DNA of 64,000 nucleotides from Microvirga sp. TS319 (lineage in GTDB: Bacteria; Pseudomonadota; Alphaproteobacteria; Rhizobiales; Beijerinckiaceae): positions 595,001 through 659,000 of the forward strand of contig NZ_JBGGGT010000002.1 of assembly GCF_041276405.1 (NCBI RefSeq), in the 5' to 3' direction. The notes beneath the pieces are model-generated. The model was not told where the DNA came from and did not search any database. It saw only the letters and a program-made list of their open reading frames with translations. Every line of letters begins with the position of its first letter. The stretch's first letter is position 1. Shown piece by piece: positions 41,852-62,006 of this stretch. The translations under genes and the position numbers were made by a program.

Positions 41852-42163
41852 CAGGCCTTACTCCTGGACATTCGGAAGAGCGGCATGGCCTTAACGCCGG
41901 AGAACGGCAATGGATCGTGCCCGCCCGGCCGAATGGGGGAGAGGTGGTTTGGTCCGCACTTCGGGGTGGGACACGAGGGATGGGCCGGGAGGGGAGGGCC
42001 GGGAGGGGAGGACCGGCAGGGCCGGCAGGACCGGGAAACGGCCAAGCCTCGCATGAGCGCCCACAAGGGCCAATAGGCTTGGCGTTAACCTTCCCGACAA
42101 GGAAACGCCCGGGGAGACGCGAGACGGGTTGATTTGGCGACGCTGACACAGAATTCTGGAGAG
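41852..42163. other. divergent intergenic region with G-rich tract
   Basis: Lies between the EmrA-like gene (-) and the RNA-like element before the GGDEF/EAL gene (+). It holds a G-rich tract at 41982-42036 made of two copies of gggccgggagggga followed by ccggcagg units, with enough G-runs for a quadruplex. A CAGAATTCTG palindrome is at 42149-42158. No gene supported. Confidence 0.5.
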
Positions 42164-42266
42164 GCTGGCGTTATACCAGCGATGGCGGATTGGACGCTGC
42201 ACGGTCAGTGGCAGTTCAAGGCATGATGCCGCTCCGCCATACCGGTGCGAACCCGGTATGTTCCCC
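42164..42266 (+). promoter_or_regulatory. candidate structured RNA leader, copy A (before GGDEF/EAL gene)
   Basis: Four consecutive hairpins. P0 is GCTGG/CCAGC (42164-42168, 42176-42180; loop cgttata). P1 is CTGCAC/GTgGCAG (42197-42202, 42208-42214; one bulge). P2 is GGCA-tga-TGCC (42220-42230). P3 is CATACCGG/CCGGTATG (42238-42245, 42253-42260; 7-nt loop), followed by TTCCCC. The single-stranded string ATGGCGGATTGGA (42182-42194) separates P0 and P1. A related element with compensatory changes lies at 44998-45102. It ends 79 nt before the ATG of the MHYT-GGDEF-EAL gene. I do not recognise a known riboswitch family. Confidence 0.6.
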
Positions 42267-42345
42267 ACATTTCATTCTGGAGTAAAGCCTCTGGGCAACC
42301 CGCCATGGCTGCGGTTGCTCCGGCGAAGGGAGATTCGGGTTTGCT

Positions 42346-44739
42346 ATGCTGACGGTCTACACGTGCATCGTCTCAAACCACGATCTCCGCCTTGTCGCGC
42401 TCGCGGCTCTGGTGTGTGGTCTTGCATCGCTCACGGCCGTCCATCTCCTGCATCACGTCCGGCGGGCGGAGAGTTCCCGGTACAGCCTGTGGCTCAACGT
42501 CGCCGCGGTATCGACCGGCTTCGGGATCTGGGCCACGCATTTCATCGCCATGCTGGCCTTCTCTCCCTCCGTGCCGGCTGCCTACGATGTCCCCTTGACC
42601 GTCTTGTCCCTGTTCGTCGCTGTTATCGTCACGGGCATGGGCTTTCGCATGGCTTTCGCGCTGGGGGGCATGGGCGCAGGGTGGTTCGGGGGAGCGCTCG
42701 TCGGATTCGGCATCGGCGGCATGCATTTTACCGGGATGGCGGCTTTCGATGTCGCCGGCACCGTCTCGTGGGACTGGCCATTGGTCGTCGCCTCCATCGT
42801 GCTCGGCTCAATTTTCGCGGGCGCCGCGCTCTCGGTTGGGCTCAGAAGCGATGCGGCGCCATGGAAGCTCTCCGGCGGATTGCTTCTGACGCTGGCGATC
42901 TGCAGCCATCATTTCACTGCCATGGCGGCTGCGACCATCACGCCCGACGGCACGATCGAGCCTTCGCCCCTGGCGATTGCGCCCCATTGGCTGGCCGTTG
43001 GCGTTGCCGCCGTCAGCCTGGTCATCCTTCTGCTCGCCTGCGCCGCGCTGAGCCTCGATCTGAGAGCGCGCCGACGCGCCGCTCTCGAGATGGAACGGAT
43101 GCGGGATCTCACTGATGCGGCGGTTGAGGGGCTTGTTCTTTGCGACGGTGAAACCATCGTTTCCGTCAACCGCAGCTTCGCCCGGCTGGTAAACCTGACG
43201 CCTGATCAGATCTGCGGAAAGACATTGAGCGCATGCGTGCCCGACGCCGAGAAGCGCAACGCGCTCTTCGACGCCATGGGCCAGGCGATCGAGGGCGATC
43301 TGTCGAATGGCGAGGGCGATCTCGTTCCGGTCGAGCTGATCGCCCATCAGATCTCCTATAACGGGCGGCCCCATAATGTGGTGGCTTTCCGCGACCTGCG
43401 CGACCGCAGGAATGCCGAGGCTCAGATCCGGTATCTGGCGCATCACGACCCGCTGACCGGGCTCAACAATCGGACGAGTTTCGAGGAGCGCCTGGATCGC
43501 GAGATCAAGCTGCATCAGAGAACCGGGCAGAAGCTGGCGCTCCTGTGTCTCGACCTCGACGGGTTCAAGGAAGTGAACGATCTCTACGGCCACGCGGCCG
43601 GAGACCGGCTGCTCCGGGACACCGCTGAACTGTTCTCCGCAGCCCTCGCGGAGGACGACATGCTGGCCCGCCTGGGCGGTGACGAATTCGCCGTCATCGC
43701 TCCCCACATAACGGACCCGGCTCAAGTCGGGGCCCTGGCCGAGAGGCTGCTGCAGCGCCTCAAGAGCGCCGATCCGTCAAGGGTGCCGGCCGGCCTGCTT
43801 TCGGTCAGCGTCGGCATCGCGATCTACCCGTCCGACGCGCCGGACCGCACGGAGCTTCTCTCCAGCGCGGACGCGGCGTTGTACCGCGCCAAGCTGGAAG
43901 GCAAGGGCACATACCGCTTCTTCGAAGCCGCCATGGGGGCGCAGATCCGTGAACGTCGCAGCATCGAGAGCGATCTGCGCAATGCCATCGCCAATGGCGA
44001 GCTGCATCTCGTGTATCAGCCGCAGGCGCAGATCGAAACCTGCGAGGTGCTCGGCTTCGAGGTTCTGCTGCGTTGGCGGCATCCTGTTCGCGGCACCGTG
44101 CTGCCGTCGGTCTTCATTCCGATCGCCGAGGGGAGCGGTCTGATCCTCCAGATCGGTGAATGGGTCCTGCGGCAAGCCTGCCGGGAAGCCGCAGGCTGGC
44201 AGCGTCCGCTGAACATCGCCGTCAACGTGTCACCCTTGCAACTGGGCAGTGACGGTTTCTTCCAGGCGGTCCAGGCCATTCTGGACGAGACCGGATTGCC
44301 GCCCGAGCGACTGGAAATCGAGATTACCGAATCGGCTCTCATCCGCGACCCTGATCGTGCTCTCGCGGTTCTGCAGAAACTCAAGACGCTCGGCGTCAAC
44401 ATCGCCATGGACGATTTCGGCACCGGCTATTCGTCGCTGTCGAACCTGCAGCTCTTTCCGTTCGACAAGATCAAGATCGATCGGTCCTTCATTCAATCGG
44501 TCCACACGAAACCGCAGGCCGCCGCCATCGTGCGCGCCGTGCTGGGGCTCGGGCGAGGCCTGGGGCTTCCCGTCATCGCCGAAGGCGTGGAGACCTCCGA
44601 GGAGCTCAGTTTCCTCGGCCAGGAAGGATGCAGCGAGGCCCAAGGCTATCTGCTCGGGCGGCCGGAGCCCATCTCCGCCTTGACGTCGCTCATCCTCGGC
44701 GCGGCGGCCGTATCACCCTCGGCCGCGGTGAAGGCGTAA
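42346..44739 (+). CDS. MHYT-PAS-GGDEF-EAL cyclic-di-GMP signalling protein
   Basis: 797 residues. An N-terminal seven-helix MHYT sensor domain (about 1-235) has three motif copies: WATHFIAMLAF, GGMHFTGMAAF and SHHFTAMAA. MHYT is proposed to bind copper and sense a gas such as O2, CO or NO. A PAS-like segment follows (about 240-350). The GGDEF domain has an intact GGDEF at 444-448. The EAL domain reads EVL (Glu572), with NVSPLQL, EITES, DDFGTGYSSL, KIDRSFI and EGVET all present, so both synthase and phosphodiesterase activities look possible. It precedes the adhesin secretion operon and shares its leader element, so it may set the c-di-GMP level for adhesion. Ribosome site weak (GAAGGGA, 13 nt). 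Confidence 0.92.
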   Translation: MLTVYTCIVSNHDLRLVALAALVCGLASLTAVHLLHHVRRAESSRYSLWLNVAAVSTGFGIWATHFIAMLAFSPSVPAAYDVPLTVLSLFVAVIVTGMGFRMAFALGGMGAGWFGGALVGFGIGGMHFTGMAAFDVAGTVSWDWPLVVASIVLGSIFAGAALSVGLRSDAAPWKLSGGLLLTLAICSHHFTAMAAATITPDGTIEPSPLAIAPHWLAVGVAAVSLVILLLACAALSLDLRARRRAALEMERMRDLTDAAVEGLVLCDGETIVSVNRSFARLVNLTPDQICGKTLSACVPDAEKRNALFDAMGQAIEGDLSNGEGDLVPVELIAHQISYNGRPHNVVAFRDLRDRRNAEAQIRYLAHHDPLTGLNNRTSFEERLDREIKLHQRTGQKLALLCLDLDGFKEVNDLYGHAAGDRLLRDTAELFSAALAEDDMLARLGGDEFAVIAPHITDPAQVGALAERLLQRLKSADPSRVPAGLLSVSVGIAIYPSDAPDRTELLSSADAALYRAKLEGKGTYRFFEAAMGAQIRERRSIESDLRNAIANGELHLVYQPQAQIETCEVLGFEVLLRWRHPVRGTVLPSVFIPIAEGSGLILQIGEWVLRQACREAAGWQRPLNIAVNVSPLQLGSDGFFQAVQAILDETGLPPERLEIEITESALIRDPDRALAVLQKLKTLGVNIAMDDFGTGYSSLSNLQLFPFDKIKIDRSFIQSVHTKPQAAAIVRAVLGLGRGLGLPVIAEGVETSEELSFLGQEGCSEAQGYLLGRPEPISALTSLILGAAAVSPSAAVKA

Positions 44740-44997
44740 GGGCCCCGCTTGCGCGCCGCAACCCGGTTCCGGATGACCCCGCCGGGCGGATCTGAGCAGG
44801 CGGGCTGATCATCAACAACGGTATCGAAATCGCAACATTCCATGCGGGAATGTTGGTGCGCGGGCATCAGGCCTAGCGCATCGTGCGGCCCGCCGGATCT
44901 GCACGATGCGCTAAAGGCTGTTAACCCTTCCGAGAAGTCGTCTGCCGCTCTGAGAAAAATCGCTATCTCGGAATGCATCGGTTCCTTATCCTGCAAG
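44740..44997. other. intergenic region with two strong hairpins
   Basis: CAACATTCC (44833-44841) pairs with GGAATGTTG (44847-44855). TAGCGCATCGTGC (44874-44886) pairs with GCACGATGCGCTA (44901-44913); the latter is related to the first half of the composite repeat family. They probably end the GGDEF/EAL transcript, meaning the secretion operon has its own promoter upstream of the RNA element. No gene seen. Confidence 0.6.
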
Positions 44998-45102
44998 CAG
45001 ACTTTAGATCTGACTATGGCAGATTGGAGCGCTCACCTGAGGTGATGCTTGTCCAAAGGCATGATGCCGACCTGCCGTGCCGGTTAGAGCCCGGTATTCC
45101 CC
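44998..45102 (+). promoter_or_regulatory. candidate structured RNA leader, copy B (before secretion operon)
   Basis: Same order as copy A. P0 is CAGA/TCTG (44998-45001, 45009-45012; loop ctttaga). The ATGGCAGATTGGA string is at 45016-45028. P1 is TCACC-tga-GGTGA (45033-45045), extendable past a bulged T. P2 is GGCA-tga-TGCC (45058-45068). P3 is GTGCCGG/CCGGTAT (45077-45083, 45091-45097; 7-nt loop, two G-U pairs), then TTCCCC. Compared with copy A, P0 has T-A to A-T and G-C to A-T exchanges, P1 is rebuilt with different bases, and P3 keeps pairing through G-U. Ends 52 nt before the first ABC gene. Confidence 0.6.
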
Positions 45103-45154
45103 GTGAAAATCCCATTCGTATTCCTCCTGCGACCGAAAGGTACAAGGTGGCGTC

Positions 45155-46852
45155 ATGGACCGGTTTGCCGGCTCTGCTGAAACATCGTTTGCGTCGAACG
45201 CATCATGGCTGACTCGTCCCTTCGCAAGCCTGCTCGGCCGCCACGGGGTGGCCTTCCTGGTGCTGGTTCTCGAAGCGTCCCTGGTGCTGACCTTGCTGGC
45301 CCTGGCTCTGCCGGCGGCCCTTCTGCAGGTCTACGACCGGATTCTGCCGAACAAGTCCGTGGGCACTCTTGTCGTCCTCGCGACGGTCGTGACGGCTGCC
45401 ATCGTACTGGAGGCCTTGGTCCGACATGTCCGCGGGCGGATTCTGGCGCGCGTGGCGGCCACGTCCGAGGCGCAGGCGCATCGTCAAGCCATGGAGCGCC
45501 TTCTCAGCGCTCCCCTTTCTGCCCTCGAGGCCCACGGCAACGGCTATTATGCCGAGCGCCTGTCCGCGATCGGCGCATTGCGCGAAGCCTGGTCGGGACC
45601 CGCTCTGCAGGCCATGCTCGATCTCCCCTTCGCGCTGCTCTACCTGATCGGCATCTGGTATCTGGCCGGACCGCTGGTGCTTGTGCCGCTGACGCTTCTC
45701 GGCTGCGTCGGCCTGCTCGCCGCGGTAACCGGACACCGGGTGCGTGGCGCGGCATATGACTTCGCTCAGGCCGAGGAGCGCCGCTTCAACTTTCTCTTCG
45801 ATGCGCTGAATTGCATCCATGCCATGAAGGGCCTGGGCGCCGAGCCCCTCCTGGAGCGCCGCTACGAGCGCCTGCAGGGGAGCTCCGCCCAAATGCGTCG
45901 GGCGTTGAGTCATACGATCTCGACGGGGCAGGAGGCCGGCATGTTGCTGGCCCAGGCGGCGACAGTCGGGGTTGCGGCCTTCGGCTGCCATATGGTGCTC
46001 AACGGTCAGCTGAGCGTCGGCGGGCTTGGGGCATGCACGATGCTGGTCGGCCGCACGATGCAGCCTCTGCTCGGCGGCGTGGCGCTATGGTCGCGCCTGC
46101 AATCCTTGGCGGAGAGCCGGCGGCGCGTGGCGGAGATCGGAGCCCTTCCGCGGGAGCACCAGGTTGGTCTTCCGGCGCTGAAGGTTCATGCCGGACACAT
46201 CCTGCTTCGGGACGTCCGGTTCCGGTCGCGCGGTTATTCCAGCAGATTGTTCGAGAACGTCTCGCTGGAGGCCCATCCGGGCGAGGTCATTGGCATCACG
46301 GGCGCCAACGGCTCCGGCCGTTCGACATTGCTGCGGCTGATCGCCGGCGATCTCCGCCCGGAGGGCGGCGGTGTCTTCATCGACGGGCAGGACCTCGGCA
46401 AGGTCGACATCGGGCCTGCCCGTCAGTCGGTCGCCCTGGTTCAACCCAATCCCGCTTTGGTCCGCGGCACGCTGCTGCAGAACCTCACCCTGTATCAGCC
46501 CGAGCTGGAGAGCGATGCCCTGCATTTCGCCACTGAGCTCGGGCTCGATCAGGTGGCGAGCGCGATGCCCGGAGGATGGCATACCCCGGTCGGTGTCGCC
46601 GCGACGCCGCTGCCGCGCGGTGCCGAGCAGAGGATCGGCATCGTTCGCGCTCTGGTGGAGAAGCCGCGCATTCTTCTGTTCGATGACACCACGACGCAGC
46701 TCGATGCGGACAGCGATACGAAGCTCGCCAGGCTCCTGGCGCAGCTACGGGGAAAGGTGACGGTCGTCATCGTCACGCACCGGCCGTCCACGCTCGCTAT
46801 CGCCGACCGGGTCTACACCATACGGAACGGATATCTGGAGTCCGAGTCATGA
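45155..46852 (+). CDS. type I secretion ABC half-transporter with degenerate ATPase site
   Basis: 565 residues: a six-helix exporter membrane domain (about 25-310; EASLVLTLLALALPAALLQV at helix 1) and a C-terminal nucleotide-binding domain. The ATPase motifs are unusual: Walker A is GANGSGRST with Arg389 replacing lysine. The ABC signature is LPRGAEQR (486-493) instead of LSGGQ. Walker B is LLFDD with Asp511 where catalytic Glu is expected. The switch His542 remains. No C39 peptidase domain. Its stop overlaps the second ABC gene by 4 nt, so the two probably form a heterodimer for export of the giant protein downstream. AAGGTGG precedes the ATG. Confidence 0.87.
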   Translation: MDRFAGSAETSFASNASWLTRPFASLLGRHGVAFLVLVLEASLVLTLLALALPAALLQVYDRILPNKSVGTLVVLATVVTAAIVLEALVRHVRGRILARVAATSEAQAHRQAMERLLSAPLSALEAHGNGYYAERLSAIGALREAWSGPALQAMLDLPFALLYLIGIWYLAGPLVLVPLTLLGCVGLLAAVTGHRVRGAAYDFAQAEERRFNFLFDALNCIHAMKGLGAEPLLERRYERLQGSSAQMRRALSHTISTGQEAGMLLAQAATVGVAAFGCHMVLNGQLSVGGLGACTMLVGRTMQPLLGGVALWSRLQSLAESRRRVAEIGALPREHQVGLPALKVHAGHILLRDVRFRSRGYSSRLFENVSLEAHPGEVIGITGANGSGRSTLLRLIAGDLRPEGGGVFIDGQDLGKVDIGPARQSVALVQPNPALVRGTLLQNLTLYQPELESDALHFATELGLDQVASAMPGGWHTPVGVAATPLPRGAEQRIGIVRALVEKPRILLFDDTTTQLDADSDTKLARLLAQLRGKVTVVIVTHRPSTLAIADRVYTIRNGYLESES

Positions 46853-49038
46853 TCGAGCACGGGGAACAGCACATGGGCAGCCCCTTGCATATTCCCGAGG
46901 ATCTGCTGACCCCGTCCGATCTGGCATTCTGCCTTCCCGTCATGCTGTGGGCCCTGGGATGGTCGGGCGGGCCCGACGATCTGCTGGCGGCGCTTCCGCA
47001 CGCCAAACCGGACGTGGATATCACCGATCTGCGCAACACGTTGGCCGTTCTCGGCTACCCGACCCGAACGGTCCGTTTGAAGCGAGGGGGCCTGGATGCG
47101 CGGGGCCTGCCCGCCATGCTTCTGACGCCGGGCAAGGCAGCGGCCGTCCTGTACCGCGACGAGGCCGGGCAGGTCCTGCGATACGATGCCGCCTCCGGAG
47201 AGGCGGTGCCTTGCGGGCCGGAGAAATTGCATGGGACCCTGTTGCTCGTGGAAGACGCGCAGGTCCCATCGGCAAGGCAGGGCTGGTTCGCGGGTATGGC
47301 GCGGCGCTTCCGCGGCGAGCTGCCGACGCTTCTGAGCATCGGTGGATTGATGGCGCTCCTGGGTCTGGCCGTGCCCGCGTTCACCATGTCGGTCTTCGAC
47401 ACCGTCATCGCCGGCCATAGCCCCGACACGCTGCCCATGCTGGTCGCGGGCGCGGTCGGCGCGATCCTCATGGAGACGGCATTCCGCGTGGTCCGACAGC
47501 GCACTCTGCTGCGCATCGCAGAGCGACTCGACCGGCTGGTTACGAATGCCGTCTTCACGCAGCTCATGTCTCTTCCGGCAGCGCTCGTGGAGAGGGCAGG
47601 GACCGCCTCACAGGTTTCGCGCCTGCGCGATTTCGCAGCAATCCGCGAATTCCTCACGGGCAGCTTCGCCATCGCCGTTCTGGACATGCCGTTCACGCTC
47701 CTCGTCATCGTGCTCATGGTGGCGCTGGGCGGTTGGATCGCTCTCGTACCGGTCGGAACGGCGCTCGGTTTCGCTCTCCTGTTCCTGATCTCCCGCGCGC
47801 CGATGCGCCTGGCGATCGAGCGGGCGGCCCGTGCCGCGCAAGTGCGCGAGGCTCTGGCCGTCGAGGCCCTAGAAGCTGTCAGGACCCTGAAGCTCGGGCG
47901 GGCCGAGGAGCGCTGGACGGAACGCTACGCGGCCGCTGCGGCCGCTGCCGCGGTCGCATCGGCGCGGGTCGGCACGCTGGCAGGATCCGTGCTCGCCGCA
48001 AGCCAGGCGCTCGTTGCCCTGTCGGGACTTGCGGCCATGGTCACGGGCGTGCTCTCGGTTCTCAACGGCGCCATGAGCGCCGGTGCCTTGATCGCCGGCA
48101 TGATGTTGATCTGGCGTGTGCTCGGTCCGATGCAGGCCTTCTTCATGATGCTCTCGCGATGGGAGCAGACCCAGGCGTCCATCCGGCAGGTCGACGGGCT
48201 GATGGCGCTGGAAACCGAGCGGCCGAATCCTCTCGAGGCGCGGATGGCGCCGCCCGAGCACGGCGCGATCACCTTCCACCGCGTCACCCTGCGCTACCTC
48301 CCGCAATCCGAGCCCGTGCTCGCCGGCGCGAGCTTTTCGGTGCAGCCGGGGCAGGTCGTCGCAATCACCGGGGCGGAGGGCACGGGCAAGTCCACGCTCC
48401 TGCAGCTGATCGCGGGCCTCTATCGGCCTCAAGGCGGATTGATTCGCATCGACGGACACGACGTTCGCTCCTTCAATCCCGCCGTGCTCAGGCGCAGCAT
48501 CGGCTGGGTCCCGCAGTCGCCGGGGCTGCTCTACGGCACCGTTGCGCAGAACCTCCGCCTTGCGCGCCCCAGCGCCACGGATGCCGAACTGCGGGCCGCC
48601 GCCGCCGAAGCCGGCGTCCTCGAAGCGATCGAGGCGTTGCCGCATGGTTTCGACACGCGTGTCGGCGATAATTACAGCGGCAGGCTGCCCCGCAGCATTT
48701 TGCTGCGGATCGCCCTTGCGGGCGCATTGCTTCGCGATGCTCCCATTCTGCTCCTGGACGAGCCGGTCGCCGGTCTCGACGACGCGTGCGCGAAGGCATT
48801 CACCGACGTGATCGCTTCGCGGCGCGGCCGCTGCACCATTCTCATGGCGACGCACCGGCCGAGCCACATTCGTCTGGCTGATCGCGTTCTGCGCATTCGC
48901 GAGGGAGTGGTGGAGGAGGTCGAACCGCAGATGCCGCCCGTCGCTCCGCGCCCGGCGAGAGCCGCCATCGGCGCATCGGTCGCGGGCGCAGCCTTCGCCC
49001 ATTCAACAGCATCGAACGGCACGAGAGGCAGCCGATGA
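46849..49038 (+). CDS. type I secretion ABC half-transporter with C39-like domain
   Basis: 729 residues. An N-terminal domain of about 135 residues resembles the C39 peptidase-like domain of RTX exporters; the conserved catalytic DCG-type motif is absent (SDLAFCLPVMLWALGW), so it would bind but not cleave cargo. Membrane domain about 155-430. The nucleotide-binding domain has intact Walker A GAEGTGKST (Lys514), intact Walker B LLLDEP (Asp637, Glu638) and His669. The signature is replaced by YSGRLPRS (609-616). Complementary to the preceding half-transporter, whose Walker motifs are degraded. Overlaps it and the HlyD gene by ATGA junctions. Alternative start at ATG 46870. Confidence 0.87.
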   Translation: MIEHGEQHMGSPLHIPEDLLTPSDLAFCLPVMLWALGWSGGPDDLLAALPHAKPDVDITDLRNTLAVLGYPTRTVRLKRGGLDARGLPAMLLTPGKAAAVLYRDEAGQVLRYDAASGEAVPCGPEKLHGTLLLVEDAQVPSARQGWFAGMARRFRGELPTLLSIGGLMALLGLAVPAFTMSVFDTVIAGHSPDTLPMLVAGAVGAILMETAFRVVRQRTLLRIAERLDRLVTNAVFTQLMSLPAALVERAGTASQVSRLRDFAAIREFLTGSFAIAVLDMPFTLLVIVLMVALGGWIALVPVGTALGFALLFLISRAPMRLAIERAARAAQVREALAVEALEAVRTLKLGRAEERWTERYAAAAAAAAVASARVGTLAGSVLAASQALVALSGLAAMVTGVLSVLNGAMSAGALIAGMMLIWRVLGPMQAFFMMLSRWEQTQASIRQVDGLMALETERPNPLEARMAPPEHGAITFHRVTLRYLPQSEPVLAGASFSVQPGQVVAITGAEGTGKSTLLQLIAGLYRPQGGLIRIDGHDVRSFNPAVLRRSIGWVPQSPGLLYGTVAQNLRLARPSATDAELRAAAAEAGVLEAIEALPHGFDTRVGDNYSGRLPRSILLRIALAGALLRDAPILLLDEPVAGLDDACAKAFTDVIASRRGRCTILMATHRPSHIRLADRVLRIREGVVEEVEPQMPPVAPRPARAAIGASVAGAAFAHSTASNGTRGSR

Positions 49039-50459
49039 CTCTGACGACATCAAGCGCCGATACGCGCGCCTCGACGTTACTCCTGCCGCAGGCAAGCCGT
49101 GTGTCCCGCCCCGATAGTCACGTGCTGGCGCTGGAAGAGCTGCGCATCCACGGATTGGAGCGGGCAGTCGTGCTGGGAGCGGGACTGCTCGTCGCGGCGA
49201 CCCTGGTTTGGGCGTCGCTGACCCGCATTCCCGAAGTCGCCGTCGGCTTGGGCGAGATCGCGCCCGCGATGGCACTTGCGCCGGTGCAGCACTTGGAAGG
49301 CGGCATCGTCCACGAGGTGCTCGTCACCGAAGGGGAGATGGTCGAGGCGGGAGAGCCGATCCTGCGCATGAACGATGCAGCCGCGCAGGCTGAGTTGTCT
49401 CAGGCGAGACTTCGCCTCGAATCCCTGCAAATGCAGTCGCAGCGCCTGATGGCGGCGGCGGACGGAAACGGCAGCGCCCTGGAGTTCGGCAGCCTTCGCA
49501 GAACCTCCGTCGCCGCAGCGACTTTCAGTGGGGGGGCGAGCGATGCTCCGATGCTCACCTCCGGCCCCTTCGCGGCGCCACAGCGGGCCGCACTGGACTC
49601 GCGGCTGCGCTCGCTGTCCGATCGCATTGCGGTTCTGACGGAGCAGGCGGCTCAGCGGCGCAGCGACCTCGCAACCCTTTCCGGGCAGATCGCGTCCATT
49701 CAGGAGCAGATGGATCTGCACGCCCGGGAACTCGGCATCCGCGAAGAACTGGCCGGCAACGGACTGACGACCCGCCTGTCCGTGCTCGAGGCGCAGCGTC
49801 TCTTCATGAGTGCGAAGGCCGAGCATGAGCGACTGAACGGGCAGCATGTCTCGGCTCAGCGCGGTCTTGCGGAGGCGGAGGCGCGGATCCACGAAGCACA
49901 GTCCGCCGCTGTCGACGAGGCGCGGCAGGAGGCGGCCCGCGTCGCGCTCGAGATCGCCGAGACGGCGGAGGTCGTTCGCAAGCTCGAAGATCGCGCCGAG
50001 CGCACCCTGGTGCGCGCGCCCATCGATGGAATCGTGCGCGGGCTGACCGTGCACCGCCCGGGCACCGTGCTGCCGCCCGGCGGCCTTGTCGCCGAGATCA
50101 TGCCGCAGGATACGCCGCTGGTGGTGGACGTACGGCTGATGCCGCGCGACGTCGGCTTCATCAAGGTCGGGCAGACCGTGCAGGTGAAGGTGCAGGCCTT
50201 CGACTATTCTCGCTTCGGCTCCGTCGAAGGTGTCGTGGAGCGGGTTTCCGCAGGCACGTTCCTCGACGAGCAACGCCAGCCTCACTACCGCGCGCGGATC
50301 TCGCTGAAGCAGCCATATGTCGGCCACGATCCGCACCTGGCTCGCCTTGCAGCGGGCATGACGGCTCAGGCGGACATCACGACAGGCCACAAGACTGTGC
50401 TGCAATATCTGCTCAAGCCGATCTATTCAGCGATGGCCGGATCGTTTCACGAGCGCTGA
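49035..50459 (+). CDS. type I secretion membrane fusion protein (HlyD/PrtE-like)
   Basis: 474 residues. A cytoplasmic tail of about 42 residues, a transmembrane helix (AVVLGAGLLVAATLVWASLT), first lipoyl half VQHLEGGIVHEVLVTEGEMV, a long coiled-coil region (about 120-335), second lipoyl half ERTLVRAPIDGIVRGLTVHR and a C-terminal beta-barrel (RVSAGTFLDEQRQPHYRARI) as in PrtE/HlyD. Periplasmic adaptor linking the ABC pair to an outer-membrane TolC-type channel, which is not encoded in this window. Start overlaps the ABC stop codon; the cargo gene follows 9 nt after its own stop. Confidence 0.92.
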   Translation: MTLTTSSADTRASTLLLPQASRVSRPDSHVLALEELRIHGLERAVVLGAGLLVAATLVWASLTRIPEVAVGLGEIAPAMALAPVQHLEGGIVHEVLVTEGEMVEAGEPILRMNDAAAQAELSQARLRLESLQMQSQRLMAAADGNGSALEFGSLRRTSVAAATFSGGASDAPMLTSGPFAAPQRAALDSRLRSLSDRIAVLTEQAAQRRSDLATLSGQIASIQEQMDLHARELGIREELAGNGLTTRLSVLEAQRLFMSAKAEHERLNGQHVSAQRGLAEAEARIHEAQSAAVDEARQEAARVALEIAETAEVVRKLEDRAERTLVRAPIDGIVRGLTVHRPGTVLPPGGLVAEIMPQDTPLVVDVRLMPRDVGFIKVGQTVQVKVQAFDYSRFGSVEGVVERVSAGTFLDEQRQPHYRARISLKQPYVGHDPHLARLAAGMTAQADITTGHKTVLQYLLKPIYSAMAGSFHER

Positions 50460-50468: not shown

Positions 50469-53400
50469 ATGACCCAGCAGATCGACCCGACCATCCCCTT
50501 CGACGCCAGCGTCATCGACGAGGAAATGCTGCGTGCGCTGCGCGCCGTGCAGCGCTCGCTCTCGCAGGGAGACGGCGGCGCCAGCGGCATTCTCGTGAGC
50601 GGCATCGCCACGGCCGCGATGGTCGCAACGGTGCAGGGTGGCGCGCAGGGCGGTTTCGTCCTCGGACCGGATGGCGCCCCCGCGCCCGAGGCATTGCCGA
50701 CATACGCACGGCAGGACGAACCCCTGAAGCCCCTGGACCCCGCGCTGTCGAACCCGTTGTCGATCCCGCAGGATTTCGCACTCCTCGAGCTCCTCGCGCC
50801 GAACGTGTCGGCGCCTGCATCCGCGATCACGATGCTCAGGGGCGCCGGCCCCCACGGCTCCTCCGACGCCGTTTCGCTCGATCAACCCAGCGCGCCCGCG
50901 GCTGTGCCGGTGATACCCGCCGCCCCGGGCGTATCGCCCAAGCCTCCCGTGGTGACGCCGCCGCCCGTGGTCCGTCCCCCCCAGGATCAGCCCGACGTCA
51001 CGGCCGAAACGCCGATCGCGCAGGCGGCCGATGCGGAAGGCGACGAGGACCAGGCGATCGCTCTCCACTTGACGGTTGCCCTGACCGATACGGACGGTTC
51101 GGAGACGTTGACGGTCAGGATCCTGGGTGTTCCCGACGGAGCGGTTCTGTCGCACGGTCACCGGGAGCCGGATGGCAGCTGGAGCGTCGATCCGCGCGAT
51201 GTCGCAGACCTGACCCTCACGCCGCCGCACGACTTCTCCGGCCGCATCGAACTGACGATGCGGGTCACCTCGCACGAGCGCAGCGGCAGCACGGCGGTCT
51301 CCGAGGCATCCTTCGCGGTTCATGTGGCTCCGGTTGCCGATGCTCCCGGCGTGAGTGTCGCCGATGCTCATGGCCGTGAGGACGAGGTGGTGTCCCTGGC
51401 CGGCCTCGGCGGCAGGCTGAGCGACATCGACGGCTCGGAAACCTTGAGCTTCGTGCTCAGCGGCGTGCCCACCGGCGCGACCCTGAGCGCCGGGACGAAT
51501 CTCGGCGGCGGCCGCTGGGCACTCACCGAAGGGCAGCTCTCCGGCCTGACCCTGACGCCTCCGGAAAACGCCTCCGGCACTTTCACCATGACGCTCACCG
51601 CCGTGGCCACCGAACGCGTCGGTGGCTCCAGCGCCAAGACCTCCGCCACGTTCACCCTCATTCTCGATCCGGTCGTGGACGATGGCACCATCGGCGGCTC
51701 CAGTGTCGGCGACGAGGATCAATGGATCGCCCTGAAACCCACCTTCGCCATGACCGACAGGGACGGTTCGGAGACATGGTCCGAAACCACGATGGTCTCG
51801 GGCGTGCCTGCCGGCGCCCTGCTCAGCCAGGGTAGGGAAGTCGCCCCGGGCGTCTGGGAGGTATCGACCGCCGCGCTGCAGGCGGGGCTCGTGTCGATCA
51901 AGCCGCCGGCGGACAGCGACAATGATTTCAACCTGACGCTCAAAGCGACCCTGACGGACACGGCGAACGGAGTGAGCGCAAGCCGTGAGGTGAGCGGCCG
52001 ATACGGGATCGAGGTGACGGCGGTCGCGGACGCACCGAGCGCCACGGCGAGCGACGTGGACGGGAAAGAGGATCAGGCGATCGCCCTCAAGCTGACGGCG
52101 GCGCTGACGGACACCGACGGCTCGGAGACCCTGTCGGTGGTCATTCTGGGCGTGCCGGATGGCGCTTCGCTCTCGGCCGGCCACCGGGCCGCCGACGGCA
52201 GCTGGCATGTCGATCCGGCCGATCTCGCGGGCCTCACGCTCACGCCGCCACGGGATTTCTCCGGCACCCTCGATCTCACCCTGCAGGCGACCTCCCGCGA
52301 GACTGCCAACGGAGCAATCGCCACCACGCGCTCCCCCTTCCAGGTCCATGTGGATGGTGAGGCCGATGCGCCTCGCGTCGACGCGCGCGAGGTCACCGGA
52401 CAGGAGGATGAGCCGATCGCCCTGAACCTCGCGGCCGCGCTCGTCGACACCGACGGGTCGGAACAGCTTTCGTCCGTGACGATCACGGGCGTTCCGCCGG
52501 GAGCATCCCTGTCCCGCGGCAGCCGGTCGCCCGACGGCACCTGGGTGCTCGATCCCTCCGACCTGCCGCACCTCGTTCTGACGCCGCCCGAAAACTACTC
52601 CGGCACGCTGAGCCTCACCGTGCACGTGACGTCGCGGGAAACGGCGAACGGCTCCCTCGCCACGACGGATGTGCCCTTCAAGGTGCATGTCAACGCCGTG
52701 GCCGACGAGCCTGAGCTGCGAGCGGACGGTGTCGCGGGAAAGGAAGACGAGGCCATTGCGCTGAAGCTCGAGGCGAAACTGACGGATACCGACGGATCGG
52801 AAGTGCTGTCGATCAGGATCCTGGGCATTCCCGACGGAGCGTCTCTCGATCACGGAACGCGCATGGCCGACGGCACATGGGTGGTCGATCCGGCCGATCT
52901 CGGGAGCCTGAAGATCACGCCGCCGAAAGATTTTTCCGGCACGATCGACCTGACCTTGGAGGCGACGGCGCGGGAGGGTTCGAACGGCTCCGTCGCGACG
53001 AGCCGCACGCCTTTCCAGGTTCAGGTGGAAGCGGTCGCCGATGCGCCCGAGATCACGGCCAACGGTGCATCCGGCCAGGAAGACGAGAGCATTCCGCTGA
53101 ACCTGTCGACGCGGGTGGCCGACAGAGACGGATCGGAAGAGATCGCGTCCGTGGTCATTCTGGGCGTTCCGGACGGCGCTTCGCTCTCCGCCGGCCACCG
53201 GGCCGCCGACGGCAGCTGGCATGTCGATCCGGCTGATCTCGGGAGCCTGAAGATCACGCCGCCGAAAGATTTTTCCGGCACGATCGACCTGACCTTGGAG
53301 GCGACGGCGCGGGAGGGTTCGAACGGCTCCGTCGCGACGAGCCGCACGCCTTTCCAGGTTCAAGTGGAAGCGGTCGCCGATGCGCCCGAGATCACGGCCA

Positions 53401-56400
53401 ACGGTGCATCCGGCCAGGAAGACGAGAGCATTCCGCTGAACCTGTCGACGCGGGTGGCCGACAGAGACGGATCGGAAGAGATCGCGTCCGTGGTCATTTC
53501 CGGCGTTCCGGACGGCTTCTCCCTGACCCATGGCACGCCTGTCGGACACGGCGCGTGGCGCATCGATCCCGCGGAGCTGTCGCAGGTCGCCATCGTTCCG
53601 CCGAAAGACTATTCGGGCACGTTCAACCTGACCATCGAGACGACGTCCCGCGAAATCTCCAATGGCTCGCAGGCGTCGTCGACGAGAACGTTCCCGGTTC
53701 GCGTGGAAGCCGTTCCGGACCAGCCGACCGTGGGCGCCCATGATGCCTCGGGCAAGGAAGACACGCCGATCGCCCTCAAGCTGACGGCGGCGCTGACGGA
53801 CACCGACGGCTCGGAGACCCTGTCGGTGGTCATTCTGGGCGTGCCGGACGGCGCCTCGCTCTCGGCCGGCCACCGGGCCGCCGACGGCAGCTGGCATGTC
53901 GATCCGGCCGATCTCGCGGGCCTCACGCTCACGCCGCCACGGGATTTTTCCGGCACCCTCGATCTCACCCTGCAGGCAACCTCCCGCGAGACCGCCAACG
54001 GAGCAATCGCCACCACGCGCTCCTCCTTCCAGGTCCATGTAGACGGAGTGGCCGATGCCCCGTCCGTCACGCTCAAGGACGTGTCCGGCGACGAGGACAC
54101 GTCGATCTCCCTCAGGCTGATGGCGGCGCTGACCGACACGGATGGCTCGGAGACCCTGTCGGTGGTCATTCTAGGCGTTCCGCCGGGAGCATCCCTGTCT
54201 CACGGCGCCCGCCAGCCGGACGGTACCTGGGTGCTCAATCCCTCCGACCTGCCGCACCTCGTTCTGACGCCGCCCGAAAACTATTCTGGCGACATCCGGC
54301 TCACCGTTCACGCCACATCCCGCGAGAGCGACGGCGATACGGCCTCGACCGAAAAATCGTTCACCGTCACGGTAAATCCCGTCGCGGACGCACCGAGCGC
54401 CACGGCGAGCGACGTGGACGGGAAAGAGGATCAGGCGATCGCCCTCAAGCTGACGGCGGCGCTGACCGACACCGACGGCTCGGAGACGCTGTCGGTGGTC
54501 ATTCTGGGCGTGCCGGATGGCGCCTCGCTCTCGGCCGGCCACCGGGCCGCCGACGGCAGCTGGCATGTCGATCCGGCCGATCTCGCGGGTCTCACGCTCA
54601 CGCCGCCACGGGATTTTTCCGGCACCCTCGATCTCACCCTGCAGGCGACCTCCCGCGAGAAAGCGAACGGCCACGAAGCGACGACCGAAGTCGAGTTCCA
54701 GGTGGATGTCGATGCGGTGGCCGATGCGCCTCGCGTCGACGCGCGCGAGGTCACCGGACAGGAGGATGAGCCGATCGCCCTGAACCTCGCGGCCGCGCTC
54801 GTCGACACCGACGGGTCGGAACAGCTTTCGTCCGTGACGATCACGGGCGTTCCGCCGGGAGCATCCCTGTCCCGCGGCAGCCGGTCGCCCGACGGCACCT
54901 GGGTGCTCGATCCCTCCGACCTGCCGCACCTCGTTCTGACGCCGCCCGAAAACTACTCCGGCACGCTGAGCCTCACCGTGCACGTGACGTCGCGGGAAAC
55001 GGCGAACGGCTCCCTCGCCACGACGGATGTGCCCTTCAAGGTGCATGTCAACGCCGTGGCCGACGAGCCTGAGCTGCGAGCGGACGGTGTCGCGGGAAAG
55101 GAAGACGAGGCCATTGCGCTGAAGCTCGAGGCGAAACTGACGGATACCGACGGATCGGAAGTGCTGTCGATCAGGATCCTGGGCATTCCCGACGGAGCGT
55201 CTCTCGATCACGGAACGCGCATGGCCGACGGCACATGGGTGGTCGATCCGGCCGATCTCGGGAGCCTGAAGATCACGCCGCCGAAAGATTTTTCCGGCAC
55301 GATCGACCTGACCTTGGAGGCGACGGCGCGGGAGGGTTCGAACGGCTCCGTCGCGACGAGCCGCACGCCTTTCCAGGTTCAGGTGGAAGCGGTCGCCGAT
55401 GCGCCCGAGATCACGGCCAACGGTGCATCCGGCCAGGAAGACGAGAGCATTCCGCTGAACCTGTCGACGCGGGTGGCCGACAGAGACGGATCGGAAGAGA
55501 TCGCGTCCGTGGTCATTTCCGGCGTTCCGGACGGCTTCTCTCTGACCCATGGCACGCCTGTCGGACACGGCGCGTGGCGCATCGATCCCGCGGAGCTGTC
55601 GCAGGTCGCCATCGTTCCGCCGAAAGACTATTCGGGCACGTTCAACCTGACCATCGAGACGACGTCCCGCGAAATCTCCAATGGCTCGCAGGCGTCGTCG
55701 ACGAGAACGTTCCCGGTTCGCGTGGAAGCCGTTCCGGATCAGCCGACCGTGGGCGCCCATGATGCCTCGGGCAAGGAAGACACGCGGATCACCCTCGACA
55801 TCTCGGCCGGGCTGACGGACACCGACGGATCCGAGGTTCTCTCCATCGTGATCCAGGGGCTGCCCGCCGGGACCAGGCTTTCGGCCGGCGTGGAGAACGC
55901 CGACGGCAGCTGGACGCTGACGCCCGCGCAACTGCCCGGCCTGACGATGACCCCGCCCACGAATTGGAGCGGCACCCGCACCATCACGGTGGTGGCTCAT
56001 TCCCGCGAGACATCGAGCAATCTGGAGGCCACCAACAGCACCACGTTCCAGCTTGATGTGGATGGAGTGGCCGATGCCCCGTCCGTCATACTCAAGAACG
56101 TGTCCGGTGACGAGGATACGGCGATCTCCCTCAACCTCAAGGTCAGTCTGGTCGATACGGACGGCTCGGAGACGCTGTCGGTGGTCATCTCGGGCGTCCC
56201 CCACGACGCGGTGCTGTCTCATGGCACCCGCCAGCCGGACGGCACCTGGAGCGTCAATGCGTCGGACGTGTCCAAGCTGAAGCTGACGCCGCCGCACGAC
56301 TTCTCCGGTGACATCCGGCTCACCGTTCACGCCACATCCCGCGAGAGCGACGGCGATACGGCCTCGACCGAAAAATCGTTCACCGTCACGGTAAATCCCG

Positions 56401-59400
56401 TCGCGGACGCACCGAGCGCCACGGCGAGCGACGTGGACGGGAAAGAGGATCAGGCGATCGCCCTCAAGCTGACGGCGGCGCTGACCGACACCGACGGCTC
56501 GGAGACGCTGTCGGTGGTCATTCTGGGCGTGCCGGATGGCGCTTCGCTCTCGGCCGGCCACCGGGCCGCCGACGGCAGCTGGCATGTCGATCCGGCCGAT
56601 CTCGCGGGCCTCACGCTCACGCCGCCACGGGATTTCTCCGGCACCCTCGATCTCACCCTGCAGGCGACCTCCCGCGAGAAAGCGAACGGCCACGAAGCGA
56701 CGACCGAAGTCGAGTTCCAGGTGGATGTCGATGCGGTGGCCGATGCGCCGGGATTGCGCGTGAGCCCGGCCGTCGGTGACGAGGATATGGCGATCCCGCT
56801 TCACGTGTCGGCATGGGCGACGGATCGCGACAATTCCGAGCGCATCGTCGGTTTCCATCTGATGGATGTGCCCGAGGGAGCCGTCGTAATGGCCGGGGGC
56901 GTTGTTCTGGAGAGAGACGCTAACGGCACGATTCTGGTGCCGCCGGGCGCGATCGATACACTCACCATCACGCCGCCTCCGCAATCCGATGTCGATTTCA
57001 CCTTGCGCGTTTCCGCCATATCGGAGGAGCCGAACGGCAGTCGCGCGGAAAGCGCTCCGATGGATCTTCCGGTCACGGTTCGCGCCGTGGCCGACATGCC
57101 GACGATGCTCACCCCCGGCGCCAGCGGCTTCGAGGATACCGAGATACCCCTCGACCTGAGGGCCGCGACGGTCGACACCGACGGATCGGAGACAATCACC
57201 TTCGTCATCTCCAATCTTCCGGCCGGCGCCATCCTGTCCGAAGGCACGTATCGCGGTTCCGGGATCTGGTCCTTGACGGCTGAGGAGGCCGCACGCGTCA
57301 CGCTTCTTCCGCCTCCGGATTTCTCCGGCTCCATCCCGCTGACCGTCACGATGATTGCGCAGGAGCGCAATGGCGGTGACCAGAAGGTGAGCACGATCGT
57401 CTTCCCGGTCCAGGTGGACGCCGTGGTGGATCGTCCCGCGGTCGGCGGACTCGACGGCAAGACCGGCGACTGGGGAACCATGCACGGCACGGAGGACAAG
57501 CCGATCCCCCTCGATCTCGATCCGGGCCTGTCCGACAGGGACGGATCGGAGAAGGTCGTGGGCGACATCATCGTCAGCGGGATCCCCGAGAGCGCGGTTC
57601 TGAAGCTCGCCGACGGAACGGTGATCCTTCCCGACACGGAAGGGCGCTACCGGATTCCCTCCGACCACATGGAAGGCGTGACGCTGACCATGCCCCTCAA
57701 CAGCGACAAGAGGGAAACGCTGACGATCGAAATGACCATCGAGGACCACGGCGGCGTCCGGGCGACGATCGGCGGTCACATGGTGGTCGATCCGCTCGGC
57801 GATGCCGATCCTCCGAAACTCGAGGTCGGTCCGTCAAGCGGGAACGGCCATGTCAGCATCGACGCGGAGCAGGGCTGGATCCCGCTTCACATCGCGGCGG
57901 AGCTCACCGACAAGGACGACTCCGAGACCCTCTACATGATGGTGCAGAACGTGCCTCGCGGAGCTTCGCTCTCCGACGGTAGTCCTGTCGGCAACGGAAT
58001 ATGGCTGGTGCCGGTGGCGTCTCTCCCCACCCTCGCCATTCGACCCGGCGCCCGCCAGTATGGCAACTTCGACCTGCAGGTGACCGCCATCGCGGTCGAG
58101 CGGGAAGGCGATCGGGAGGCTTCGACGAAGCCTCTGACCGTCACCGTCACCGTGCCCGAAGGCGCAGGCGACGGTGGAGGCGGCGAGGGCGGCGGCAGCG
58201 ATGGTGGAGGCGATGTTGGGGGCGGCGGAACAGATCCAGCATCCAAAATCGCGCAACCGCCGACATTGACGATCGGGCACGCGACCACGACGGAAGACAA
58301 TGCGGTCGCATTGTCGATCAAGGCCGAACTCGCGGATTCCGATCACGGCAGAGAAGCGCTCGGCATCCGCATTCAGGGGGTGCCGGAGAACGCACGCCTC
58401 TCGGTCGGCCTTCAGGACCCCAAAACGGGCGACTGGCTGCTGAGGCCCGAGGATCTCGCGAAGGTGGAGCTCGTTCCTCCGCCCGATTTCGCCGGCACGA
58501 TCACGCTGATGGTCACGGCGGTCTCTCAGGAGGCGACAGGGAGCCAGGCGTGCACGACGAGCCCGCTTGAGATCGTGGTCACGCCCGTTGCCGATGCGGC
58601 CGTCATCAAGGCCGCGCCCGCCAGGGGCTTCGAGGATCAGCCGGTCGATCTCAATCTCGACATCCGGACCGGCGACAGCGATGACAGCGAGACCATCACA
58701 TCCATCATCCTGTCCGGTCTGACCGGAGGCGCGCGGATCGCGGACGGTCCCGGCATCACGAACAACGGCGACGGCACATGGACCGTGCACCCTGACCATC
58801 TGTCGGGCGTTCAGGTGATCCCGCCTCCCAACGGCCATGGCCATTTCGAAGTGACAGTCCGGGTCACGACACAGGAGACCGCGAACGGACACGCGACCAC
58901 CACGACGAAGACGGTCGCCTTCGATGTCGCGCCCGTGGCCGATGCACCGACGGTGATCGTGAACGACGCGTCCGGCAGGGAAGACGGTTCGATCGATCTG
59001 CATCTCTCCGCGCGGCTCAACGACACCGATGGCTCGGAAGTGCTCTCCGTCGTGATCGAAGGCCTGCCTCCAGGCGCACGGCTGACCGCAGGCGTGAACA
59101 ACGGCGACGGCAGCTGGACGCTGACGCCCGCTCAGCTCTCGGGCCTCAAGCTGATCCCGCCCGCCGATTGGAGCGGCACGATGGATCTGACCATGCATGC
59201 CCATGCCCGCGAGCGTTCGAACGGCTCAGTCGAGTCCCGCAGTGCTCCGTTCCAGGTGCAGGTCGAGGCCGTGGCCGACGCGCCCCTCGCGAGCGCCCGC
59301 GACGTGTTCGGTGACGAGGACACGGATATTCCGCTCAACCTCTCGGCCTCCCTGGTGGACCGCGACGGCTCGGAGACGCTGTCGGTCGTCATCACGGGGA

Positions 59401-62006
59401 TTCCCGATGGGGCGGTGCTGTCCCACGGCGAGCCGCTGGGCAACAACAGCTGGAGCGTTCCGCCGTCCGCGCTGTCGCATCTGACGATCACGCCGCCGCA
59501 CGACTTCTCCGGCCGGATCGAGCTGTCGCTGCAGGTGACGGCTCGCGAGAAGAACGGCAGCACGGCGACCTCGGAGGCCTCCTTCGTGGTTCAGGTGGGC
59601 GGTGTCGCAGATGCGCCGAGCGTGACCGTGGTGGATGCTCACGGGCGGGAGGACACGCCGGTGTCTCTCGATGGGCTCGGCGGCGCCTTGAGCGACATCG
59701 ACGGCTCGGAGAGCCTCGCCTTCATCCTCAGCGGCGTGCCCGAGGGCGCCACGCTCAGCGCCGGCACCGATCTCGGCGGCGGCCGCTGGGCGCTCACGGA
59801 AGCCCAGCTGTCCGGCCTCACCCTGAACCCGCCGACGAACGCTTCGGGCAGCTACACGCTGACCCTCACGGGAATCGCGACGGAAAAGGCAGGCGGTCCC
59901 GGCGCCTCGACTTCGGCCACCTTCACCGTGACGGTCGATCCGGTGGCGGACAAGCCGGTCGTCACGGCAAGCAACGTGGTGGGGCAGGAGGACGAACCGA
60001 TTGCCCTCAGGCTGACGGCCGCTCTGACCGACACCGATGGTTCGGAAACTCTGTCGATCCTTTTGACGGGCGTGCCCGAGGGTTTCACGCTGTCGGCGGG
60101 CGTGAGAAACGCCGATGGCAGCTGGAGCCTGTCCGCGTCGCAGCTCGCGGGGCTCACCCTGAACCCGCCGGATGATTTCTCCGGGTCGCTCAATCTGACG
60201 CTGCATGCGACGGCAACGGAAAGCGCAACGGGCGATGCGATCACGACCGAGGCACGGTTCCAGGTGCAGGTCGAGGCCGTGGCCGACGCGCCCCTCGCGA
60301 GCGCCCGCGACGTGTTCGGTGACGAGGACACGGATATTCCGCTCAACCTCTCGGCCTCCCTGGTGGACCGCGACGGCTCGGAGACGCTGTCGGTCGTCAT
60401 CACGGGGATTCCCGATGGGGCGGTGCTGTCCCACGGCGAGCCGCTGGGCAACAACAGCTGGAGCGTTCCGCCGTCCGCGCTGTCGCATCTGACGATCACG
60501 CCGCCGCACGACTTCTCCGGCCGGATCGAGCTGTCGCTGCAGGTGACGGCTCGCGAGAAGAACGGCAGCACGGCGACCTCGGAGGCCTCCTTCGTGGTTC
60601 AGGTGGGCGGTGTCGCAGATGCGCCGAGCGTGACCGTGGTGGATGCTCACGGGCGGGAGGACACGCCGGTGTCTCTCGATGGGCTCGGCGGCGCCTTGAG
60701 CGACATCGACGGCTCGGAGAGCCTCGCCTTCATCCTCAGCGGCGTGCCCGAGGGCGCCACGCTCAGCGCCGGCACCGATCTCGGCGGCGGCCGCTGGGCG
60801 CTCACGGAAGCCCAGCTGTCCGGCCTCACCCTGAACCCGCCGCATGATTTCTCCGGAACGCTCAATCTGACGCTGCACGCGACGGCAACGGAAAGCGCAA
60901 CGGGCGATGCGATCACGACCGAGGCGCGGTTCCAGGTGCAGGTTCAAGGCGTGGCGGATGCGCCGCTGCTTCAGGCCAACGACGTCACCGGCGAGGAGGA
61001 TCATGCGATTGCGCTGAATCTCTCGGCGGCGCTGAGCGATACGGATGGGTCGGAACAGCTGTCCTCCGTCACAATCTCCGGATTGCCGGACGGCTTCGTC
61101 CTTTCGCAAGGCACGATGAGCGCGAACGGCACGTGGCGGGTGTCTGCGGACATGCTGTCGGATGTGCGGCTGATCCCGCCTCAGAACTGGAACGGAACGC
61201 TGCACCTGACGCTTCATGCCACGAGCCTGGAGACCGCATCGGGCAGCACCGCGACGTCATCGGCTCCCTTCACGGTCACCGTGGCGCCCGTCAATGACGC
61301 ACCTGAAGTCTCGCTCACGGCCCCCGGCCATTCGGATGCGGGCTCTCATGCCGTCAGCGCGATCGGCGGCGTGCAGGCGGAGGATGTCGACAGCACCCAT
61401 CTTTCCGGGGCGACCGTCACTCTCTCAGGAGGACATCCGGGCGACAGGCTCGATTTCGAAGGGTTCGCGCTCCATCACGAGAGCGGCCATGTGATGATCG
61501 GCGATACCGGCATCGAGCTGGTCGGGGGCGGCTACGACCCCGCGACCGGAAGCCTATCTCTCAGCGGCAGCGCCCCGCCGGACACCTATGCGGCGGTGCT
61601 GCGCGCGCTGGTGCTGGAGAACCCGGACGGAACGGGCCTTGCTGCCGGCACCCGGAGCATCGGGGTGACGCTTGTGGATCAGGAAGGGGCCGCTTCGGTT
61701 CCGAAGACGGTTGACGTGATCGTGGACGACATGGTGCCAGATCCCGTCGGGACGGGCGAGCAGGGCTTTGCCGCGGCCTCGCTCGAACCCGCGCAGGATC
61801 ACCTCGGGTCCGATGTCCTTTTGCTGATCGCAGAGAGCGGAGGTGAAACGACCGATACCGGCAGCCTGTGGACGGAGCATCTCGATCAAGGTCCCGATCA
61901 CGCCGCCGTGCCGCATGCACCGGCCGATCTCGATCATCTGGGATCCGATCAGATTCAGCCGATCAACGATTTTCACGTGGAGATCGGGCGTGTGAACTGG
62001 TCCTGA
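50469..62006 (+). CDS. giant repetitive surface protein/adhesin, type I secretion cargo
   Basis: 3845 residues, strongly acidic. Residues 1-185 are unique, with a hydrophobic stretch [19 protein letters not shown] and a Pro-rich linker. From about 190 to 3605 I count 30 tandem Ig/cadherin-like modules of about 113 residues. Each carries an EDxxIxLxL strand, a DxDGSE-type acidic loop that probably binds Ca2+, [13 protein letters not shown] turns, LTPPxDFSGT and an xVxVxxVADAP junction. A Gly-rich hinge lies at about 2565-2590 between modules 21 and 22. The last 240 residues are a different beta domain plus an acidic tail ending [11 protein letters not shown]. No signal peptide and no RTX nonapeptides. 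Encoded with its exporter; probably an adhesin or biofilm protein. Several DNA blocks are nearly identical, so copy number may vary. Confidence 0.9.
52361..53159 (+). repeat. long internal repeat of the adhesin gene, block 1
   Basis: About 799 bp that reads the same as 54719-55517 (offset 2358 bp) at every place I compared. The last 264 bp (52896-53159) are also repeated in tandem at 53235-53498 (offset 339 bp, exactly 113 codons) with a single base difference noticed. Confidence 0.85.
53235..53760 (+). repeat. internal repeat of the adhesin gene, block 2
   Basis: Nearly identical to 55254-55779 (offset 2019 bp, 673 codons, six modules). Differences I noticed are silent single bases, for example ttctccctg versus ttctctctg and ccggacc versus ccggatc. 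Confidence 0.8.
54291..54730 (+). repeat. internal repeat of the adhesin gene, block 3
   Basis: About 440 bp nearly identical to 56310-56749 at the same 2019-bp offset as block 2. Between the two blocks the corresponding modules have diverged, consistent with patchy gene conversion. Confidence 0.8.
59249..59834 (+). repeat. internal repeat of the adhesin gene, block 4
   Basis: 586 bp reading the same as 60257-60842 (offset 1008 bp, 336 codons, three modules). Covers the C-terminal set of modules, separate from blocks 1 to 3. Confidence 0.85.

Follow-up and report, generated by a model that had tools for sequence, protein, structure and literature searches.

We analysed a 64,000-nucleotide (nt) stretch of Microvirga sp. 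TS319 (contig NZ_JBGGGT010000002.1, positions 595,001 to 659,000; hereafter the window), in which two related leaders precede a cyclic diguanylate (c-di-GMP) enzyme gene and an adhesin-export operon. They belong to an RNA family that has no Rfam counterpart and whose structure is supported by comparison. Across Hyphomicrobiales, a large group of bacteria from soil and plants, the main site of this element is the flagellin leader, and its presence follows one of two types of FlbT. The reading we favour, with some reserve, is that it is an operator for the FlbT of lateral-flagellum type, which Microvirga would have reused to place adhesion and c-di-GMP turnover under a late-flagellar checkpoint.

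Structure of the RNA family

Folded singly, neither window element showed an excess over shuffled sequences (z -0.64 to -1.44). Single copies fold like shuffles, so the structure had to be tested by comparison. In a 20-sequence alignment (A2, 20 of 21 listed places; L008 was dropped as a near copy of L009) the core consists of P1 (7 base pairs, bp), enclosing P2 and P3 (GGC-AUNAN-GCC), and then of P4, a CCGG/CCGG hairpin whose loop is mostly 7 nt long and shorter in some families. An earlier note, made from the letters of the window, had drawn four separate hairpins; the drawing is corrected here to a three-way junction with one 3′ hairpin, in which GGCRG pairs with CYGCC past the GGCATGATGCC hairpin. 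The GGA that had been placed in an unpaired linker is part of UUGGA, which belongs to the P2 helix.

Among 137 aligned matches (136 distinct), 94.5% of cells were paired and double changes were seen in 20 of 21 pairs; the covariation score, in an alignment fitted to the model, was 0.478 against at most 0.056 with slid partners. Because of this fitting a tree-aware control was added, a home-made form of the R-scape null in which substitutions were re-dealt along a 130-sequence tree in 60 simulations. The rows fell from 137 to 132 on removal of three likely false matches (L116, L122, L124) and two incomplete ones, and to 130 on removal of two near copies. At E≤0.05, 11 column pairs passed, and all 11 were pairs of the model, located in P1, P2 and the outer pair of P4. 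Covariation beyond phylogenetic expectation, a check that the earlier note had named, was thus observed, and all of it in the proposed helices. In P3 and in the inner part of P4 the pairs were too invariant or below significance: the P3 stem and loop and the inner GC pairs of P4 are almost constant in sequence. Conserved unpaired nucleotides are also found in the P3 loop and the junction.

At gathering score, Rfam 15 recognised a 16S rRNA and a tRNA in the window and left the leaders unmatched; 20 element loci likewise gave no match. Lax scans of both window leaders returned sub-threshold matches to unrelated families and no more, and the scan of 17 loci, run up to E 2, yielded a ylbH match with E 2 that lies outside the element. 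Known Rfam families were rejected as its identity, since none reaches threshold, which agrees with the initial impression that no common riboswitch core (c-di-GMP-I/II and others) is present. The family was not found described in Rfam 15 or in the one open-access library that was searched.

Flagellin and chemotaxis leaders

The idea of an undescribed cis-acting RNA common to c-di-GMP and adhesin-export genes holds, given the lack of an Rfam match, the covariation and the conserved upstream position; what it missed is that flagellin leaders are the main site. In 114 of the 137 aligned matches a flagellin-type start, called by its N-terminal motif and not by Pfam, lies 30-120 nt after P4, and two more stand in incomplete sequence (at least 116). 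Ten matches concern chemotaxis: in eight the next gene encodes an MCP-domain protein, which in five cases also has a protoglobin domain, and the other two precede a HAMP protein running off the locus end and a CheA-like kinase. The rest comprise the two window copies and their two Microvirga lupini counterparts, three unassigned matches, three that are probably false and one at a locus end. In most families sampled the element is on flagellins alone; the two window copies themselves do not precede flagellin genes.

Directly after P4 in flagellin leaders, AUGUCCC pairs with the Shine-Dalgarno (SD) region GGGACAU before the start codon. The pairing is maintained through exchanges (UGUUCC/GGAACA, UGUCUUUC/GAAAGACG), and the mean helix score of the 114 flagellin leaders was 16.0, as compared with 14.3 for swapped partners (maximum of 200: 15.0) and 9.8 for letter-shuffled sequences. 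A minority of flagellin leaders lack this hairpin, e.g. L097, L100, L104 and L105.

The genome of Microvirga sp. TS319 carries two further strong copies, both before flagellin-type starts and one about 8 kb from flbT. Its flagellin leaders hold tandem elements (L117:1973-2040 and 2041-2123; L118:503-567 and 572-654). With covariance model R2, the upstream element of each pair is weak (23-25 bits) and the downstream one strong (53 bits).

Distribution and association with FlbT

A pattern search of 248 genomes of the window's family matched 15 genomes of 6 genera, with no match for the reversed control. Covariance model R1 (E≤0.01) extended this to 97 of 347 Hyphomicrobiales genomes, in 41 of 135 genera, so that matches beyond the locus, which had been suggested as a check, do exist. 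In a class sample outside the order, weak matches occurred in 16 of 385 genomes (best 29.9 bits, E 8.1e-5). None of 17 weak loci, i.e. 16 of the 17 outside-order matches and one in the window's family, had a flagellin start; five of them had no reading frame by the rule used and one was incomplete.

FlbT was detected in 249 of the 347 order genomes, including that of Microvirga sp. TS319, and in 94 of the 97 genomes with the element; the three others have weak element matches (E 4.8e-4 to 5.3e-3). At E<1e-4 the element is accompanied by FlbT in 91 of 91 genomes, against 158 of 256 others, and it was found in none of the 98 FlbT-negative genomes of the order; as these genomes are related to one another, a Fisher value for the contrast should not be read as a true probability. 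In four genera the element is present in 27 of 28 genomes with two FlbT copies and in none of 12 with one (FlbT-negative members are outside this count). A further genus (f20 g62) includes six genomes with two copies of FlbT, none of which is among the element matches listed. Within Microvirga, all 42 FlbT-positive genomes carry the element, and three other genomes have neither element nor FlbT.

For a tree, 43 stretches were used, of which 41 yielded an FlbT; the remaining two were blind flanks, one of them meant for the second FlbT of G422. A single branch with 100/100 support separated 16 element-linked FlbTs (12 that are the sole FlbT of an element genome and four near an element) from 25 others, in a tree for which the program warned of an unsettled bootstrap and of L351 as a long branch. 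Three families (f1, f36 and f44) appear on both sides. The element goes with one flagellar system and not the other within the same genomes. From which genera carry which type, we infer that the two FlbT types correspond to the flagellar systems and that the element-linked one is lateral.

The two copies in the window

The features of the window, all on the + strand, are as follows.

42164..42180, +: copy 1, P0 hairpin of 5 bp with a 7-nt loop, upstream of the core; seen in the MHYT leader class, not in the family at large
42182..42240, +: copy 1, three-way junction (R1 78.5 bits over 42176-42273; alignment A2, pair counts)
42182-42188 with 42234-42240, +: copy 1, P1; 42190-42195 with 42214-42219, P2; 42220-42230, P3 (GGCATGATGCC)
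42241..42257, +: copy 1, P4 hairpin ACCGG/CCGGT with a 7-nt loop
42346..44739, +: MHYT-PAS-GGDEF-EAL c-di-GMP enzyme of 797 amino acids, after copy 1 (Pfam: EAL, GGDEF and MHYT above cut-off, PAS marginal)
44998..45014, +: copy 2, P0-like hairpin, weak alone (z -0.77); fold not kept in other adhesin-ABC leaders
45016..45078, +: copy 2, three-way junction (R1 81.1 bits over 45010-45111)
45016-45022 with 45072-45078, +: copy 2, P1; 45024-45028 with 45052-45056, P2; 45058-45068, P3
45079..45095, +: copy 2, P4 hairpin GCCGG/CCGGT with a 7-nt loop
45155..46852, +: ABC transporter, first gene of a type-1-secretion (adhesin export) cluster, after copy 2
46849-49038, +: second ABC transporter of the cluster
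49035-50459, +: HlyD-type membrane-fusion protein of the cluster
50469..62006, +: repetitive open reading frame of 3845 amino acids after the exporter genes, presumed from its position and repeats to encode the secreted adhesin

That these are two homologous leaders was borne out: a pattern of the shared 5′ strings (up to 3 mismatches) had two matches in the window where shuffles gave an expectation of 0.05, and the earlier note was right about the strings ATGGCRGATTGGA, GGCATGATGCCG and TTCCCC and about the 7-nt loops. With a 47-position pattern, again at up to 3 mismatches, the two copies were the sole matches in the 6.26-Mb genome (reversed control 0); the covariance model later recovered additional, more distant copies there. 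A local duplication is an unlikely origin of the pair, as the corresponding leaders of M. lupini (G170) lie deep inside separate contigs (C3 and C4), each with its own gene.

P0, which the earlier note counted among the conserved helices, fared less well. In the 28 nt 5′ of P1, folding did not exceed letter shuffles in adhesin-ABC (mean z -0.58), CHASE4 (+0.13) or flagellin (-0.34) leaders. It was mildly above them in MHYT (-1.63) and short GGDEF-EAL (-1.67) leaders. P0 was thus rejected as a family-wide feature, with a mild signal kept for these two classes.

Leaders of Microvirga

Model R2 matched 45 of 48 Microvirga genomes. An orthologue of the adhesin-ABC gene is present in 27 of the genus's genomes, and in all 27 the element lies 39-61 nt 5′ of the matched region (two matches are partial). 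At ten representative loci Pfam identified GGDEF-EAL proteins in eight (MHYT, CHASE4 and short types), TackOD1 in one and a sub-threshold RTX match in one. By start motif, 89 distinct leaders comprised 23 MHYT, 21 ABC, 16 CHASE4, 9 flagellin, 7 short GGDEF-EAL, 2 TackOD1 and 11 others; these class counts are not frequencies, the loci having been chosen by match length (about 95-103 nt), which is biased against flagellins.

Several side observations concern these leaders. The RTX calcium-binding match, just below the Pfam cut-off, is in a gene (from 354) that starts 61 nt after the element L309:192-292 and is possibly another surface protein under the same leader. TackOD1-domain proteins follow the elements of L272 and L275 (Pfam on L272). 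Three strong elements (L298, L302 and L319) are not followed by an intact gene of any usual class and are perhaps relics; by eye, L298 has a transposase-like frame behind the element and L302 a gene in decay.

Most adhesin-ABC, MHYT and CHASE4 leaders carry, partly as judged by eye, a promoter-like TTAACY about 85-101 nt and then a TTGACT about 50 nt upstream of P1. The block does not precede flagellin leaders; in the window the first motif is near 42085 and 44921. As it is common to non-flagellin leaders, the genes behind it may have a common transcription control too. By eye, many adhesin-ABC leaders (L244, L246, L013) have a GGCC-GAAA-GGCC-like hairpin just 5′ of the start region in place of the SD-pairing one.

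Proposed mechanism and alternatives

We propose that the element may act as an mRNA leader that responds to a protein and belongs to the late (class III) regulon of the lateral-type flagellar system of Hyphomicrobiales. FlbT of the lateral type, alone or with flagellin or FlaF, would recognise P1-P4 in flagellin leaders and in those of some chemotaxis mRNAs, and by controlling how well these messages are translated or how long they last it would tie them to flagellar assembly. The output in flagellin leaders would be the adjoining AUGUCCC...GGGACAU hairpin that holds the SD region. In Microvirga, where GGDEF-EAL genes and the adhesin-export operon have the element too, attachment and c-di-GMP turnover would read the same flagellar signal. 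FlbT as the ligand, the sign of control and an output in non-flagellin leaders are what we infer. Passages of PMC4347634 and PMC3930126 describe binding of FlbT to flagellin 5′ leaders in Caulobacter, and a passage of PMC9812332 ascribes to FlbT the class III targets "flagellins and Che proteins", with which the flagellin and chemotaxis targets found here fit.

Several results weigh against this proposal. The tie between FlbT and the element is one of co-occurrence and does not show binding; the split would look the same for any other component of the lateral system, or for the flagellin genes themselves. One genome (G436) has two FlbT copies and no element, and three of the 45 Microvirga genomes with elements are drafts in which no FlbT was detected: G959 (100% complete, 380 contigs), G983 (92%) and G985 (89%). 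Nothing convincing was found in the 385-genome sample outside Hyphomicrobiales, although FlbT does occur outside the order (Caulobacter). SD pairing was not above controls in adhesin-ABC (10.2 versus 10.4 swapped and 11.5 shuffled), MHYT (11.6 versus 11.0 and 11.3) or short GGDEF-EAL leaders (10.2 versus 11.5 and 10.7). When 80 loci with distant relatives of the MHYT enzyme (kept from 582 found) were searched, the element stood before the enzyme in M. lupini L132 alone; the other 79, including a second strain named M. lupini (Lut6, L133), had none at E<0.01, and the next match (E 0.053) was on the opposite strand. The link to the MHYT enzyme is thus a feature of Microvirga and not universal within the genus. 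Finally, FlbT control may act in either direction, since a passage of PMC4347634 reports opposite effects, repression until assembly in Caulobacter and activation in Brucella.

Of the other explanations, a different ligand is the one to be taken most seriously, even if we hold it to be rather unlikely: either another lateral-system protein (FlaF, a flagellin or some RNA-binding protein not yet recognised) or a small RNA pairing with the conserved P3 loop. The split of the FlbT tree is equally well explained by the lateral system as a whole, and the conserved AUNAN loop might be where an RNA pairs or a protein binds; yet in the passages cited above it is FlbT alone, among the components of these systems, that is described as binding flagellin leaders. 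The leader might also be no switch at all but a structural or temperature-sensitive element with an effect on mRNA stability or SD access alone, which would agree with the SD-pairing hairpin and the unremarkable single-sequence folds. Neither a stabiliser nor a thermometer needs the near-invariant inner P4 pairs and P3 stem and loop, co-segregation with one flagellar system also speaks against it, and this possibility seems very improbable. The suggestion that the GGA, present in both window copies, is a CsrA/RsmA contact is almost certainly wrong. The GGA is base-paired in P2, and relatives often have GA or AG instead. A search with the CsrA Pfam model was negative in all 347 order genomes, that of Microvirga sp. 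TS319 included, and positive in three of 14 controls (E. coli, B. subtilis and T. maritima); on this gene content the contact was rejected, barring a CsrA that has diverged beyond the reach of the model.

Known c-di-GMP riboswitches control motility, chemotaxis, GGDEF-EAL and adhesion genes. The target set found here (flagellin, MCP, CheA-like, several GGDEF-EAL types and the adhesin exporter) resembles theirs, and P1-P4 could form an aptamer that senses c-di-GMP or a different second messenger; such a new class of riboswitch would switch flagellin, chemoreceptor, GGDEF-EAL and adhesin-export genes. The conserved unpaired nucleotides of the P3 loop and junction are consistent with such an aptamer, as is the retention of elements before GGDEF-EAL and adhesin genes in the three Microvirga drafts without detected FlbT. 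The element has no Rfam match to the models of c-di-GMP-I/-II riboswitches. Against a riboswitch stand the absence of the element at E<1e-4 from the 98 FlbT-negative genomes of the order, the restriction to flagellins in most families sampled, and the way it follows one flagellar system and not the other inside the same genomes; we consider such a riboswitch unlikely. The fuller version, in which a second messenger, most likely c-di-GMP, controls flagellin and chemoreceptors and, in Microvirga, closes a feedback network over GGDEF-EAL enzymes and the adhesin exporter, is to our mind distinctly unlikely.

Comparison with known systems and significance

The FlbT operator that we propose is closest to the FlbT-controlled flagellin leaders of Caulobacter (Anderson and Gober 2000, as given in citing papers). 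Both involve a flagellin 5′ leader, the presence of FlbT, a proposed translational control and Che class III targets. The citing passages name no RNA structure family for Caulobacter, whereas the element described here is one, has no convincing match in the sample from outside Hyphomicrobiales, accompanies FlbT of the lateral type only and has the extra GGDEF-EAL and adhesin-export targets in Microvirga. The flg-Rhizobiales RNA (RF01736, according to a passage of PMC2864571) comes from the same order and, by its name, suggests flagellar genes, but it matched neither the window and 20 loci at gathering score nor the 17 loci up to E 2. A translational checkpoint on flagellin, as proposed for the element, is also known from the control of flagellin mRNA by CsrA-FliW (PMC4894983); that system differs in relying on CsrA, which the order of the element lacks in our search.

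An operator in flagellin leaders, as proposed here, is of a known kind; what is new is the RNA family itself and its reuse for adhesion and c-di-GMP enzymes. A review calls the mode of FlbT action on flagellin mRNA unresolved (passage in PMC4347634). A defined, order-wide RNA with conserved loops, which tracks one of two FlbT types within genomes, makes this question directly testable. Should the riboswitch explanation be true instead, the element would represent a new aptamer class. If the operator explanation is true, adhesin export and several c-di-GMP enzymes of Microvirga would have been brought under the flagellar checkpoint by means of an RNA element, forming a post-transcriptional motile-to-sessile regulon, and the shared leader hints at one common control for swimming and sticking.

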